Shown: positions 3,181 to 28,893 of the stretch, one piece after another
How positions within the stretch are numbered: the stretch's first letter is position 1
Layout: every line of letters starts with the position of its first letter
Translations under genes and position numbers: made by a program
The notes under the pieces: generated by a model
Database searches by the model: none
What the model was told of the DNA's origin: nothing
What the model saw: the letters and a program-made list of their open reading frames with translations, nothing else
Source: a virus
DNA: 33,289 nt
Reading direction: 5' to 3' (one strand)
IMG/VR virus record: IMGVR_UViG_3300031997_000038
Span: 1 to 33,289 of that record

Positions 3181-3936
3181 ATGGGAGAACAAGCAGTATC
3201 GGCGGCAGGCTACCATGTAATCTGGGGAACCAGTTATATCGGGGAGGCCATCGATCCAAAAATGCCGGACGAAACCCGGAACATGGTCGACAACACCACC
3301 CACGACGCCCTCGCGGCGAACGGTGGTTATGAGACAAAGAGCAAGGGTATCATCACCCAGGGAGATGGATCCATCAAGATCTACTACATCGGATCGACTG
3401 TCCACAAGGCACTCCGAACAGACTTCCTCGCGGGAACCGAACGGGATGTGTACTTCATCAGGCCGTCCTTGGGAGACCTCGCTTTCACCTGCAAGAAATG
3501 CACCGCCATCATCTCCAAGATGGCCGAACCCATCGACAAGAAAGGCAACGTTACCTGGGAACTGGCCATCACCCCGACATCCAGCCAGACGGATATCGAG
3601 ACCGCGGCAACCGGCCTGACCACGCCGTTCTTCGCGATCGCCGATGACGACAGCCCCACGAACGCCATCACCCCGGTACCCGCAGCGGCGGCGGCTGTCT
3701 ATGCATACCGCGCCGAGCTCTATGCGGACAACGCAACCTTCACCGTCACCCCGACCGCCACGGTCGGCTCGATCTACGTGAACGGTACCCTCGTGATATC
3801 CGGCGCTGCATCCGGGAACATCACCGCACCTGCAGCCGGGAAGAAGATGTACCTTCCGATCGTGGTCTTCGAGGCCAACAAGTGCCCGAAACCTTACCTG
3901 GTGATCATCGCGAAGGGACCAACGAACCACCCGTGA
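3181..3936 (+). CDS. Major tail tube protein with C-terminal Ig-like extension
   Basis: This 251-residue protein has an AAGGAGG ribosome-binding site at about 3163-3169, the strongest in the structural region, as expected for an abundant protein. Residues about 1-160 look like a tail tube fold, with MADETRNMVDNTTHD-like and ITQGDGSIKIYYIGSTVHKAL segments and a KKGNVTWELAITPTS strand. Residues about 165-251 form a separate beta domain (VYAYRAELYADNATFTVTP, then GSIYVNGTLVISGA) typical of Ig-like/cadherin-like decorations on tail tubes. Such domains often bind sugars on the cell surface. It precedes the chaperone pair and tape measure in standard order. Tube assignment is firm by synteny; the Ig-like domain is inference. 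Confidence 0.8.
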   Translation: MGEQAVSAAGYHVIWGTSYIGEAIDPKMPDETRNMVDNTTHDALAANGGYETKSKGIITQGDGSIKIYYIGSTVHKALRTDFLAGTERDVYFIRPSLGDLAFTCKKCTAIISKMAEPIDKKGNVTWELAITPTSSQTDIETAATGLTTPFFAIADDDSPTNAITPVPAAAAAVYAYRAELYADNATFTVTPTATVGSIYVNGTLVISGAASGNITAPAAGKKMYLPIVVFEANKCPKPYLVIIAKGPTNHP

Positions 3937-3944
3937 GGTGACCA

Positions 3945-4358
3945 GTGACTGACCGATCCATCCCGTTCCAGCTTGGGAAAGGCACTCATCTCCGATTTAA
4001 TCGGGGGGATATTGAGGCCCTGGAGACTGCATTCAGCACTATCAGCGGTCGCCGTATTGGATACCCCCAATTCCCCGATTTCCTCCACAGCCTGACCGGC
4101 CAGGGGTTCTTTGTCTGGCGCGGGCTGAAAATGGAAGCCCCGGACGGGAAACTCATCCATACTTTCCCCCTTAACGTGGCGGGCAGCGAGGAGGCCGGGG
4201 ACGCCGTCTTTGCTTTCATCCAATGCGGCAAACCCGGGATCCTTGGAGGGGCGATCGCGGACGCGCTCGTATCTACTGGTCTTTGGAAATCAAAGACCGA
4301 CAGTGAAAAACAGGATACATCGGAAGGGGTGGACGGACCAAAAAACTCACCGACCTGA
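3945..4358 (+). CDS. Tail assembly chaperone, G-type product (upstream frame)
   Basis: This 137-residue protein starts at GTG 3945 after a GAGGTGA ribosome-binding site. Between tail tube and tape measure genes, siphoviruses encode the chaperone pair equivalent to lambda G and GT. The N-terminal part (IPFQLGKGTHLRFNRGDIEAL) is typical of the upstream chaperone. Twelve bases before its stop lies the slippery heptamer AAAAAAC in the correct phase, so part of the ribosomes should shift -1 into the 4358 frame and give a 232-residue fusion. The stop overlaps the downstream ATG (TGATG). Function is inferred from order plus the frameshift signal. Confidence 0.8.
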   Translation: MTDRSIPFQLGKGTHLRFNRGDIEALETAFSTISGRRIGYPQFPDFLHSLTGQGFFVWRGLKMEAPDGKLIHTFPLNVAGSEEAGDAVFAFIQCGKPGILGGAIADALVSTGLWKSKTDSEKQDTSEGVDGPKNSPT

Positions 4359-11474: not shown

Positions 11475-11548
11475 AGCCCATGGGGGGATTTGAACCCCCG
11501 ACTTTTTGCTTACCAAGCAAACACGCTACCGGTCTGCGTTACATGGGC
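11475..11548 (-). tRNA. tRNA-Thr (anticodon GGT)
   Basis: On the minus strand from 11548 to 11475 all arms fold. The acceptor is GCCCATG/CATGGGC (7 bp) and the D stem is ACGC/GCGT with a loop carrying GG. The anticodon stem TTTGC/GCAAA holds the loop TTGGTAA, giving anticodon GGT (Thr, codon ACC). The T stem is GGGGG/CCCCC with the loop TTCAAAT. The discriminator is T, as in archaeal tRNA-Thr, and no CCA is encoded. The 5' end is only six bases after the stop of the leftward regulator gene, so the two may be co-transcribed and separated by RNase P. Confidence 0.93.
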
Positions 11549-17843: not shown

Positions 17844-18034
17844 ACCACCGTACCTCATCCAAGAGCAGTAATTGTCAGAAACGACCGACCCGGGTATTCC
17901 TGAACTGTATAATCTGCGGCAAACGGTTCTCAGTGAATGCATCTGAGTACCGGTATAAGTTGAAGCAAGGAACGCAACCGAAGAATTGTTCTCAGAAGTG
18001 TGGGGCACAGGCCCGCCGGGGAGTGAAGGCATGA
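17840..18034 (+). CDS. Small zinc-finger protein
   Basis: From ATG 17840 (overlapping the preceding TGA) the 64-residue product has one clear zinc site: C-x-x-C in [13 protein letters not shown] and C-x-x-x-C in [14 protein letters not shown], 28 residues apart. This is the layout of short zinc ribbons or treble-clef knuckles that commonly accompany phage nucleases and methyltransferases. Its last bases overlap the start of the methyltransferase locus (18031). Probably binds DNA or RNA; the exact family is not recognised. Confidence 0.6.
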
Positions 18035-18195
18035 CGGATTTAACGCACCTCTCCCTGTTCAGCGGTATCGGAGGCATAGACTTGGCTGCGGAATGGGCAG
18101 GGTTCAGGACCATTGGGCAGGTGGAACTCGCAGACTATCCCTTTCGCAGTCCTCCAGAAACATTGGCCCGATGTGCCAAAGTGGAGGGATATTAG
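18031..18195 (+). CDS. C5-cytosine methyltransferase N-terminal fragment
   Basis: This 54-residue frame starts at ATG 18031, overlapping the previous stop. It contains motif I of C5-cytosine methyltransferases ([17 protein letters not shown]), the S-adenosylmethionine binding loop, plus the following VELADYPF. It then leaves the family sequence at 18138-18142 and ends at TAG 18193. Reading one base further on restores the family sequence ([12 protein letters not shown]), so the break is a one-base gain in the CCC run or a +1 shift site. Two bases after its stop, an ATG (18198) opens the other long frame. See the two overlapping entries. Confidence 0.7.
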
Positions 18196-19228
18196 GGATG
18201 TCACAAGTGGATCTTACAGGGAACGCTGTGGAGAATCTCCCCTCACAATATTGTCCGGTGGATTCCCCTGCCAGCCGTTCAGTTGTGCCGGGAAGCGACA
18301 AGGCGAGAAAGATGACCGTTTCCTCTGGCCTGAAATGCTCCGCGTTATTACGGAGCTCAAACCATCTTGGATTATTGGAGAAAACGTGCCTGGGATCATC
18401 ACAATGGCACTCGACAATTGTCTTACTGGCATGGAAAATATCGGCTACTCCTGCAGGGCGTTCAATATTCCAGCTTGTTCCGTCGGTGCCGTTCATAGAA
18501 GAGCAAGAATCTTCATTGTTGCCCACAGTAACAACGCAGGAAGTGGAACCCCCGGAGATGGAATTATCGGAAAATGGAAGACGCCTGACAAAGAACAACC
18601 AGAACTCCCATTCCATAAACCTGGCAGATCGGTTGCTAATGACTCCATCAGCGACCAACATAGAGGGCGGGTCCGATCGGACCGAGAAGAGAACGAAGTA
18701 TCGGGAATCAATCGGAAGGCATTACGTTCCCGGAGGTTTGGCAGAACAGATCAAGATGTTACCACCCCTCAGGGCAAACGACAACGATCAAGGAAACCAC
18801 GAAGCAATTCTGAAAGCGGGATCGTCGTGGAAAGGGCAGAAACGGGGAAGTACGGTAGCAACAGCAATAGCAATGCTCCCGACCTGCACAGCCAGGGATT
18901 ACAAGGATACAGGACAGAATACAAACTATCGCAAACTATCCGAGAAGTGCATACTATCCGGAAGGATTGCAATGCTTCCGACAGTCACGACCCCACGACC
19001 CCACGACTCGGAGAAAACGGCAGGGGAATATATCCCAAGTCAGAACCAGGTGGATCTGACTGTAATCCTTGGAAAGAACAATGGCTTGAAGTTGCAACCC
19101 GCCTTTGCCGAGTGGATGATGGGTTTCCCAGAAGGGTGGACCGCCTTAAATGCCTCGGAAATGCCGTTGTCCCGCAGCAAGTCTATCCGATCCTCAAAGC
19201 GATTGCAGACATTGAAAGGGGGTGCTGA
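18031..19228 (+). CDS. DNA C5-cytosine methyltransferase, interrupted by a +1 frame break
   Basis: After the break near 18140 the frame running to TGA 19226-19228 carries the other conserved motifs. Motif IV is GGFPCQPFS, with the catalytic Cys codon at 18269-18271. Motif VI is ENVPG (18380-18394), motif VIII is HRRARIFIV, and motif X is GNAVVP (19157-19174) with RLKCLGN before it. The stretch between motifs VIII and X (about 170 residues, Ser/Arg/Asn rich) would hold the target recognition region. This frame has no good start of its own, so an intact enzyme needs a frameshift or a sequencing correction. Viral enzymes of this kind protect DNA from restriction. The same bases also encode another long frame (18198-19235). 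Confidence 0.75.
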
Positions 19229-19235
19229 AGTATGA
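18198..19235 (+). CDS. Overlapping 345-residue frame with methyltransferase-associated motifs
   Basis: This frame is open for 345 codons over the same bases as the methyltransferase, shifted one base. Its ATG lies two bases after the TAG of the 54-residue fragment and nine bases after GGAGGG (18183-18188). Its stop overlaps the next start (ATGA at 19232), as for most genes here. It carries five LPT-x-T/TPSAT-like blocks at 18519, 18639, 18756, 18873 and 18972 ([46 protein letters not shown]). It then has [15 protein letters not shown] (from 19107). From memory, similar sequences occur in many phage and viral-metagenome proteins labelled methyltransferase or hypothetical; I cannot verify this here. 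Confidence 0.55.
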   Translation: MSQVDLTGNAVENLPSQYCPVDSPASRSVVPGSDKARKMTVSSGLKCSALLRSSNHLGLLEKTCLGSSQWHSTIVLLAWKISATPAGRSIFQLVPSVPFIEEQESSLLPTVTTQEVEPPEMELSENGRRLTKNNQNSHSINLADRLLMTPSATNIEGGSDRTEKRTKYRESIGRHYVPGGLAEQIKMLPPLRANDNDQGNHEAILKAGSSWKGQKRGSTVATAIAMLPTCTARDYKDTGQNTNYRKLSEKCILSGRIAMLPTVTTPRPHDSEKTAGEYIPSQNQVDLTVILGKNNGLKLQPAFAEWMMGFPEGWTALNASEMPLSRSKSIRSSKRLQTLKGGAEV

Positions 19236-19513
19236 CCCAACCCATCCCCCGGGACTGGACGAAATGCCAGAAAGAGATTGACAGCTTACTCCGGTTCTAT
19301 GATCCGGAGTATGAGAGCCGGACGTATCTCAAATCGGGGTTTTATATCCATGATATTGCAGATCACCCGGAGAAGTATCCTTTATTAGCGGCATTATCAC
19401 CACAGCTCCGGAAACGGCATATCAGTATCTACTTGAAACAACAGGGCCGGATACCAAGGACTCATACGATTGGTGTTGAGATCGTGTGGATGCTGCCCGG
19501 GGTGCTGGCATGA
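19232..19513 (+). CDS. Hypothetical protein downstream of methyltransferase
   Basis: The 93-residue protein starts at an ATGA overlap with the 18198 frame. It is mixed helix and strand, with the pattern YLKSGFYIHDIADHPEKYPL and LRKRHISIYLKQQGRIPR, where a basic helix might contact DNA. The end (VEIVWMLPGVLA) overlaps the HNH gene start. No domain is recognised. It may act with the methyltransferase or HNH gene, judged only from neighbourhood. Confidence 0.5.
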   Translation: MTQPIPRDWTKCQKEIDSLLRFYDPEYESRTYLKSGFYIHDIADHPEKYPLLAALSPQLRKRHISIYLKQQGRIPRTHTIGVEIVWMLPGVLA

Positions 19514-27413: not shown

Positions 27414-27904
27414 ACTTCAAAAAAGTATTCATCAGCGAACTATCGCCAGCGAAATACAATCCCCGGAAAGACCTGCAACCGAACGACCCGGAATATCAAG
27501 CGATAAAGCGGTCGATTGAAGAGTTCGGATATGTTGACCCGGTTATTGTAAACAGCGATTATACGGTGATCGGAGGACACCAAAGATTAAAGGTGCTGAA
27601 AGAACTGGGACACGCACAGATTGACGTTGTAGTTGTGGATATCCCGAAGATCAAAGAGAAGGCGCTGAACATCGCTCTGAACAAGATCACGGGCGAATGG
27701 GACACGCAACGATTAACCGACCTGCTCGGGGAACTGAAAGCAGAGGGAATGGATATCAGCATCACCGGGTTTGATGATGCTGAATTTGACCGAATAATTC
27801 GGGATATGAACATACCGGAAACCGAAAAAGAATATGATGAATCCGTCGCCGATGATGTGGAAATGATAACGTGCCCCCATTGTGGAAAGGAGTTTCCTCA
27901 ATGA
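27410..27904 (+). CDS. ParB/Srx-fold nuclease-domain protein with zinc knuckle
   Basis: The 164-residue protein opens with a ParB-like domain (about 5-95): FISELSPAKYNPRKDL, IKRSIEEFGYVDPVIVN, the signature TVIGGHQRLKVLKELGH, and IPKIKEKALNIALNK. The G-G-H-Q-R box is the nucleotide-binding motif of the family. The C-terminal part carries C-P-H-C-G-K (one half zinc knuckle). Viral ParB-like proteins next to methyltransferases and terminase are frequent and often regulate packaging or modification; they are seldom real partition proteins. Its stop overlaps the methyltransferase start. Confidence 0.85.
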   Translation: MNFKKVFISELSPAKYNPRKDLQPNDPEYQAIKRSIEEFGYVDPVIVNSDYTVIGGHQRLKVLKELGHAQIDVVVVDIPKIKEKALNIALNKITGEWDTQRLTDLLGELKAEGMDISITGFDDAEFDRIIRDMNIPETEKEYDESVADDVEMITCPHCGKEFPQ

Positions 27905-28893
27905 GTTTTAAGGTTGTATCTCTCTTTGCAGGGTGTGGGGGTTCATCTACTGGTTACGTCATGGCGGGGGGGAAAGTCCTCCTTGCAGTAGAATGGGATG
28001 ATAATGCGGTTGCCACATACAAAGCGAATTATCCAGATACCCCCGTTTATCATGGAGATATTGGGAAATTATCAATAGAGGAGATCCTAAAAACAACAGG
28101 ACTTAAACCCGGCGAACTGGATATTTTAGACGGTTCACCCCCATGTCAGGGATTCAGCACGGCGGGAAAACGGGATTTTTGCGATACGAGAAACCAACTC
28201 TTTAAAGAATATGTCCGGATCCTTCAGGGACTCCACCCAAAAGTATTTGTGATGGAAAATGTTTCCGGAATGGTAAAAGGCAAAATGAAATTAATATTTG
28301 CCGAAATCCTCCGGGAACTCAAAGGATCAGGGTATCAGGTAAAAGCCCGGTTAATGAATGCAATGTATTATGGCGTTCCCCAATCCCGGCAGAGGATGAT
28401 CTTTGTTGGGGTACGGAACGATTTAGGGATTGAACCGAGCCATCCGAATCCACAGACAAGACCTATACCAGTAAAAGAGGCATGGAAAAATATAAAGAAC
28501 GAAAATTATGCCCGACCGTTGGCAACTGTGGCAACAAACGTATGGAACGCTATAAAACCCGGACAGAATGGTTCTGCATATAGACCGGGATATTATTTTG
28601 GATCTCCTAAACTCGATCCCAATAAACCATCACCAACAATGAATAAATCCCTACCCGGGATTGGGGGATTATTACACCCCATTGAAAAGAGGACCATTAC
28701 AATAGAAGAAGCAAAGCGCATTCACTCATATCCAGATTCATATATTTTCCTCGGTTCTTTTACCGATAGATATGCAAGAATCGGCAATTCCGTTCCCCCA
28801 TTACTCACCAAAGCAGTAGCAGAGCATATAGACAAAAACATCCTCCAGCGGTATAGGGACACGTTCAAGAAAGAGCCGGTGCTGATGAAATGA
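27901..28893 (+). CDS. DNA C5-cytosine methyltransferase (intact)
   Basis: ATG 27901 overlaps the preceding stop, so the upstream in-frame start at 27871 is not used. The 330-residue enzyme contains all main motifs: I FAGCGG (9-14), IV SPPCQGFS with catalytic Cys82, VI ENVSG (119-123), VIII QSRQR (161-165), and the motif IX-X region with PDSYIF and GNSVPP (about 302-307). It transfers a methyl group from S-adenosylmethionine to carbon 5 of cytosine. The target recognition region is short (about 180-250). No restriction enzyme is adjacent, so it is probably a solitary viral enzyme. The gene is more A/T-rich than its neighbours, suggesting separate acquisition. Confidence 0.95.
   Translation: MSFKVVSLFAGCGGSSTGYVMAGGKVLLAVEWDDNAVATYKANYPDTPVYHGDIGKLSIEEILKTTGLKPGELDILDGSPPCQGFSTAGKRDFCDTRNQLFKEYVRILQGLHPKVFVMENVSGMVKGKMKLIFAEILRELKGSGYQVKARLMNAMYYGVPQSRQRMIFVGVRNDLGIEPSHPNPQTRPIPVKEAWKNIKNENYARPLATVATNVWNAIKPGQNGSAYRPGYYFGSPKLDPNKPSPTMNKSLPGIGGLLHPIEKRTITIEEAKRIHSYPDSYIFLGSFTDRYARIGNSVPPLLTKAVAEHIDKNILQRYRDTFKKEPVLMK

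Follow-up and report, generated by a model that had tools for sequence, protein, structure and literature searches.

Strong evidence for a gene overprinted on a phage cytosine-C5 methyltransferase gene, and its probable role as the target-recognition part of the same enzyme

The locus at positions 18031–19235 of a viral DNA stretch of 33,289 nucleotides (IMG/VR record IMGVR_UViG_3300031997_000038; the whole stretch is referred to as the window) most probably encodes a two-polypeptide cytosine-C5 methyltransferase, with both chains read from one stretch of DNA in two frames, according to the design of M.EcoHK31I; we estimate the probability of this reading at about 80%. In such an enzyme AdoMet would be bound by the alpha chain, which would also bring the catalytic Cys and motif X (motifs I–VIII and X overall); the target-recognition region would be contributed by the beta chain together with motif IX, and both chains would assemble into one enzyme, as in M.EcoHK31I. 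The window copy would be inactive unless ribosomes shift by +1 at CCC-UUU-C. The evidence that beta is a protein-coding gene is much stronger than the evidence for its role as a subunit.

The window belongs to a tailed phage, with matches to terminase, portal and tape-measure proteins. The locus is a single gene-sized stretch composed of three pieces, in which two long frames, giving alpha (frame 2) and beta (frame 0), overlap by about 1 kb. Its features are as follows:

18018–18023, plus strand: Shine-Dalgarno-like GGGGAG ahead of the alpha start (from the sequence)
18031–18141, plus strand: N-terminus of alpha with motif I (LFSGIGG), frame 1, the ORF stopping at 18195 (PF00145 positions 2–31; phrog_363, 2.1e-11)
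18136–18147, plus strand: TATCCCTTTCGC, the +1 frame break between the alpha N-terminus (frame 1) and the core (frame 2), common to the window and locus L032
18143–19228, plus strand: alpha core, frame 2, with motifs IV (PCQ), VI (ENV), VIII (RRARIFIV) and X (GNAVVPQ) (PF00145, 2.5e-27; phrog_363, 1.4e-57)
18183–18188, plus strand: GGAGGG, Shine-Dalgarno-like, nine bases 5' of the beta ATG
18198–19235, plus strand: beta, a 345-aa ORF overprinted on alpha in its +1 frame (phrog_1008, 1.7e-35; dual-coding statistics on relatives)
18519–18989, plus strand: LPTxT-type blocks of beta (18519, 18876 and 18975; weaker ones at 18639 and 18759), above the target-recognition region of alpha
19092–19148, plus strand: motif IX-like segment of beta, 19 residues
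19142–19180, plus strand: motif X of alpha, overlapping in the other frame the end of the motif IX-like segment of beta
19232–19235, plus strand: ATGA, in which the start of the next gene (19232–19513) and the stop of beta overlap, as is typical of coupled genes

The frame ending at 19228 encodes the catalytic portion of a cytosine-C5 methyltransferase. It matches PF00145 and phrog_363 and exhibits PCQ, ENV, RxR and GNAV in order (GGFPCQPFS at 18257–18283, GENVPG at 18377–18394, HRRARIFIV at 18494–18520, motif X at 19142–19180), in agreement with a sequence-only reading of this DNA, made without database searches, which had placed C5 motifs IV, VI, VIII and X in this frame. The same reading had described a methyltransferase locus with two overlapping frames between 18031 and 19235; the two frames were found, but the N-terminus with motif I actually lies in a third one (18031–18141). 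In most relatives motif I and the core share a single reading frame, while in the window they are in frames 1 and 2, so that this copy is a frame-broken C5 gene, which by homology still belongs to the C5 family. The alpha sequences of relatives span the profile from motif I to motif X, and the window alpha does so only across the frame break. The alignment of alpha with M.HhaI covers motifs I–VIII only (1e-29), and no recognisable motif IX was found in alpha. The Rfam search gave no match within the locus. Elsewhere the window contains a second C5 methyltransferase gene (27871–28893), which is canonical and single-frame, with a +1 frame full of stops that serves as a control, and a tRNA-Thr (GGT) gene on the minus strand (11475–11548; ARAGORN).

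The frame ending at 19235 is open for 345 codons from the ATG at 18198 and carries LPTxT-type blocks at 18519, 18876 and 18975, as the sequence-only reading had it; these blocks are also conserved in A3/A4. Its suggestion that two widespread styles of protein sequence are one DNA read in two frames was borne out, with beta 19113–19142 lying over alpha 19112–19141. Its chance figure of 6e-8 for 345 open codons needs correction, because it ignores the limit that the alpha codons set on +1 stops. Under a synonymous shuffle of alpha, 5.4 +1 stops are expected in the window locus and none of the 100 shuffles was stop-free, so that its openness alone would be worth about 0.005 (a Poisson estimate). 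The strong evidence for dual coding comes from the relatives and not from the openness of the window copy.

The 198 loci gave 223 overlapping ORF pairs; relative to alpha, beta is in the +1 frame in 209 of them, in the same frame in 9 and in the +2 frame in 5, and all 21 loci with beta matches that were later derived from genomes (some of them the same place counted twice) are in the +1 frame. For 167 dual loci (42,528 overlap codons), shuffling of alpha codons among synonyms predicts 734 stops in the +1 frame, where none is observed, whereas the +2 frame is unaffected (2581 stops vs 2609 expected); the beta-profile score of the natural sequence exceeds that of every shuffle in 167 of 167 loci, including 67 bacterial loci that were outside profile building. 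Because the 167 loci had been chosen partly for an open beta, loci found by alpha alone were also tested. Homologues with an intact enzyme and a broken second frame, which the sequence-only reading had listed among the findings that would speak against overprinting, turned out to be the minority: 51 of the 58 alpha-selected loci have no +1 stop and the remaining 7 do, with 17 stops in total vs 214 expected. Stops are not depleted in the negative controls, neither in E. coli dcm (9 vs 11.3 expected) and the other C5 enzyme of the window (18 vs 17.3), nor in 25 canonical viral C5 genes (336 vs 358).

The analysis of synonymous constraint, a check proposed along with the sequence-only reading, leads in the same direction. 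In 88 related pairs the divergence of alpha at fourfold sites, which is 0.487 upstream of beta, falls to 0.183 and 0.142 where the two frames overlap and returns to 0.407 beyond the end of beta; although the pairs are phylogenetically non-independent, this is a large effect, and within the same genes it reverses where beta begins and ends. Across the target-recognition stretch alpha varies most at codon position 1, which corresponds to the wobble position 3 of beta, and in this region beta is better conserved than alpha in about 85% of the pairs; in the catalytic core alpha is the better conserved protein. It might be argued that the second frame is an untranslated shadow, open and similar among relatives only through the conservation of alpha, as for a single gene the openness of the +1 frame is just moderately improbable (about 0.005 here). 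This explanation is rejected by the synonymous shuffling, the fourfold-site constraint, the enrichment of start signals (see below) and the canonical C5 controls, as well as by the superior conservation of beta in the target-recognition region, and we regard it as extremely improbable. A chance ORF as the source of the second frame is rejected on the basis of the shuffling, the alpha-selected loci, the constraint, the start signals and the canonical controls. The proposal that the second frame is a real overprinted protein is upheld by a frame kept across phyla, a loss of stops confined to +1, suppressed synonymous change and internal start signals, and the interpretation of beta as a genuine, conserved, overprinted protein-coding gene is strongly supported by these sequence comparisons.

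A beta-frame ATG preceded by a Shine-Dalgarno sequence is present just 5' of the conserved part of beta in 109 of 168 loci, vs 15.7 expected; in the window the signal is GGAGGG, nine bases, and ATG 18198. Separate initiation within alpha is therefore the likely route to beta. The sequence-only reading had offered an alternative C-terminus as a second option, in which ribosomes would reach the second frame by frameshifting from alpha and thereby append a different tail to the catalytic domain. Single-frame versions do exist among the relatives (L100 and part of L241), which speaks for this option; however, beta has its own ATG and Shine-Dalgarno sequence in most loci, and the overlap starts before motif IV, which would be needless for an alternative tail. 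These start signals favour independent initiation over an alternative C-terminus, which we consider very improbable.

Beta is a widespread protein family. The PHROG family phrog_1008, labelled 'DNA methyltransferase', is matched by the window beta (1.7e-35) and by all 109 sampled betas; no Pfam model is matched by the window beta or by the 109 sampled relatives, and the NCBIfam search yielded a single stray match among the sampled betas, with no model that describes beta. The tblastn searches proposed in the sequence-only reading, carried out with either frame, retrieved the same DNA in phages of several hosts (Paenibacillus, Lacticaseibacillus/Lactobacillus, Bacteroides and Klebsiella). Profile searches identified at least 426 viral and at least 262 bacterial stretches; the bacterial records listed, part of which are metagenome bins, include Bacillota, Bacteroidota, Pseudomonadota, Acidobacteriota, Verrucomicrobiota, Chlorobiota and Calditrichota, as well as a Coriobacteriia bacterium, a Ktedonobacterales bacterium and Treponema. 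Many of the bacterial copies may be prophage-borne. Counting the respective centre genome, beta was found in 20 of 398 sampled species genomes of the phylum of a Pseudomonadota genome and in 4 of 398 of the phylum of Merdimmobilis. The plasmid search returned six records, and the window DNA gave no match to E. coli genomes. A literature search for overprinting of phage methyltransferases found no description of it.

As to its function, beta probably belongs to the same enzyme as alpha and provides its target-recognition part and motif IX, a role suggested by the logic of the motifs and by rearranged relatives. The C-terminal consensus of beta reads L-N-P-x-W-V-E-W-L-M-G-F-P-x-G-W-T, with M, G, P, G, W and T conserved at 96–100%. 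The sole alignment of this C-terminus with canonical C5 enzymes falls at motif IX (LTPLECERLMGWPDNHT), in register, albeit statistically weak (hhalign probability 1.6%, E 0.03), and the profile of the beta end matches motif IX of L093 and L068 weakly (iE 0.13 and 0.21). Neither full-length beta nor its motif IX piece retrieved a methyltransferase from the solved structures searched. AlphaFold models of beta alone were of low confidence, with pLDDT of 59 and 66 and pTM of 0.26 and 0.30 for the window beta and the short beta of L023, respectively (alignments of 103 rows, with sequences from annotated phage records left out, and of 78 rows), and Foldseek matched nothing to the window model.

Among the rearranged relatives, L115, L134 and L183 have an alpha that ends past motif VIII and a beta-frame ORF that comprises LPTP blocks, an IX-like segment and motif X; in L318 the IX-like segment and motif X occur together in one beta-frame ORF; and in L100 and gp65 of mycobacteriophage DLane a single frame encodes everything from the core and the LPTP blocks to the IX-like segment and motif X. 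The IX-like segment sits ahead of motif X in L134, L115, L183, L318 and L100. Or perhaps beta is real and overprinted, but a separate phage protein, e.g. a regulator or an anti-restriction factor, with no part in the methyltransferase? The weakness of the motif IX match and the lack of a confident fold for beta alone would be compatible with this. However, beta overlapped alpha throughout the loci examined, alpha has no recognisable motif IX, motif X lies in the beta frame of L115, L134, L183 and L318, and L100 unites all parts in one frame, all of which makes a separate protein unlikely compared with a target-recognition subunit.

Some relatives carry peculiar changes near the conserved motifs. 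In L174 (778–780), L199 (2994–2996) and L214 (3015–3017) an in-frame TGA occurs right before the catalytic Cys of alpha, in the context GGFP-TGA-TCG/CTG-TGC/TGT-CAG/CAA, and in L174 and L199 an HNH-like ORF is inserted in frame upstream of it, which suggests a homing element at the active-site codons. In L102 (about 1200–1500) an end resembling an intein C-terminus (...GIVVHN) adjoins the catalytic CQPFS of alpha on the 5' side. In L024 (about 3919–4300) an HNH-like coding insert separates the IX-like end of beta from motif X of alpha, and part of the motif IX-like DNA is repeated 3' of the insert.

The window copy of alpha presents a problem of its own, as one extra base in TATCCCTTTCGC (18136–18147) parts its N-terminus from the core. 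The same extra base is present in L032 (about 4017–4028), which represents a related phage and is the only other contig found with the break. The first 148 nt of the gene (18043–18190) are 84% identical between the window and L032, and the end (19110–19217) is 81% identical; the middle, with the catalytic and target-recognition parts of both frames, has been replaced, and the comparison identifies this as a swap of a double-frame module. The 33 codons 5' of the break differ at 14 sites (1, 1 and 12 at codon positions 1, 2 and 3), with one amino acid changed, and this third-position bias indicates that the N-terminal fragment stayed under selection at the protein level. A slip at CCC-UUU-C would yield the expected ...DYPFAVL... 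sequence, and a selected fragment with a shared break, albeit in two sequences only, fits a tolerated +1 ribosomal frameshift. An alternative for the window copy, compatible with the model of the family, is a decaying gene, with alpha inactivated by the additional base and beta as a remnant. The separation of motif I and the core into different frames and the rarity of the break speak for decay; the L032 copy, with its mostly third-position changes in the 84% identical stretch and its fragment under selection, and the fact that the core and beta are fully open in both sequences, speak against it. We consider decay and tolerated frameshifting equally likely for this copy.

Outside small viruses, it is rare for two genes on one strand to retain a long overlap through deep divergence. 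The overlap of alpha and beta (about 0.5–1.3 kb) is retained in phages and in bacteria from many phyla, and its statistics are strong enough for a reference case of overprinting. Should beta prove to be the target-recognition part, many 'complete' C5 methyltransferases in databases would be half enzymes, a number of 'hypothetical proteins' would be their missing other halves, and specificity predicted from alpha alone would be wrong. If the overprinted-subunit design is true, one DNA segment would evolve catalysis and target recognition simultaneously in two frames, and the locus makes it testable how target specificity changes in a stretch of DNA while a second frame is kept intact. More tentatively, the overprinted target-recognition subunit could be an old, common and largely unrecognised design of C5 enzymes, with the lineage of the window requiring in addition a +1 frameshift at CCC-UUU-C; we find this broader version possible but rather doubtful.

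Among known systems, the single-chain C5 enzymes M.HhaI and Dcm encode motifs IX and X within a single frame, unlike the locus described here; alpha aligns with M.HhaI over motifs I–VIII, and in Dcm, in contrast to alpha, +1 stops are not depleted. The label of phrog_1008 gives no hint that its members are encoded in the +1 frame of a different methyltransferase gene. In Paenibacillus larvae phage Bloom, BLOOM_56 and BLOOM_57 are overlapping ORFs in the same +1 relation, both annotated as DNA cytosine methyltransferase; the parts of the Bloom paper that were available contain no comment on dual coding. Two-chain C5 enzymes are represented by M.AquI, naturally split past motif VIII so that the small chain bears IX and X, and M.EcoHK31I, with motifs I–VIII and X on the large chain and motif IX alone on the small one (PMC3404938). 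M.AquI (CYCGRG) is resembled by L115, L134, L183 and L318, whose beta-frame ORF carries both of these motifs, but in the window motif X is in the frame of alpha and the two frames overlap by about 1 kb. With M.EcoHK31I (YGGCCR) the window family shares a large chain with motifs I–VIII and X but without IX. The second chain of the window family is read from an alternative frame of the gene for the first, and the M.EcoHK31I small subunit is reportedly also read from an alternative frame inside the large-subunit gene. M.EcoHK31I, likened here by its description, differs in being a bacterial restriction-modification enzyme; in addition, beta in the window family also spans the target-recognition region, where it is the better conserved frame, and the window alpha is frame-broken.
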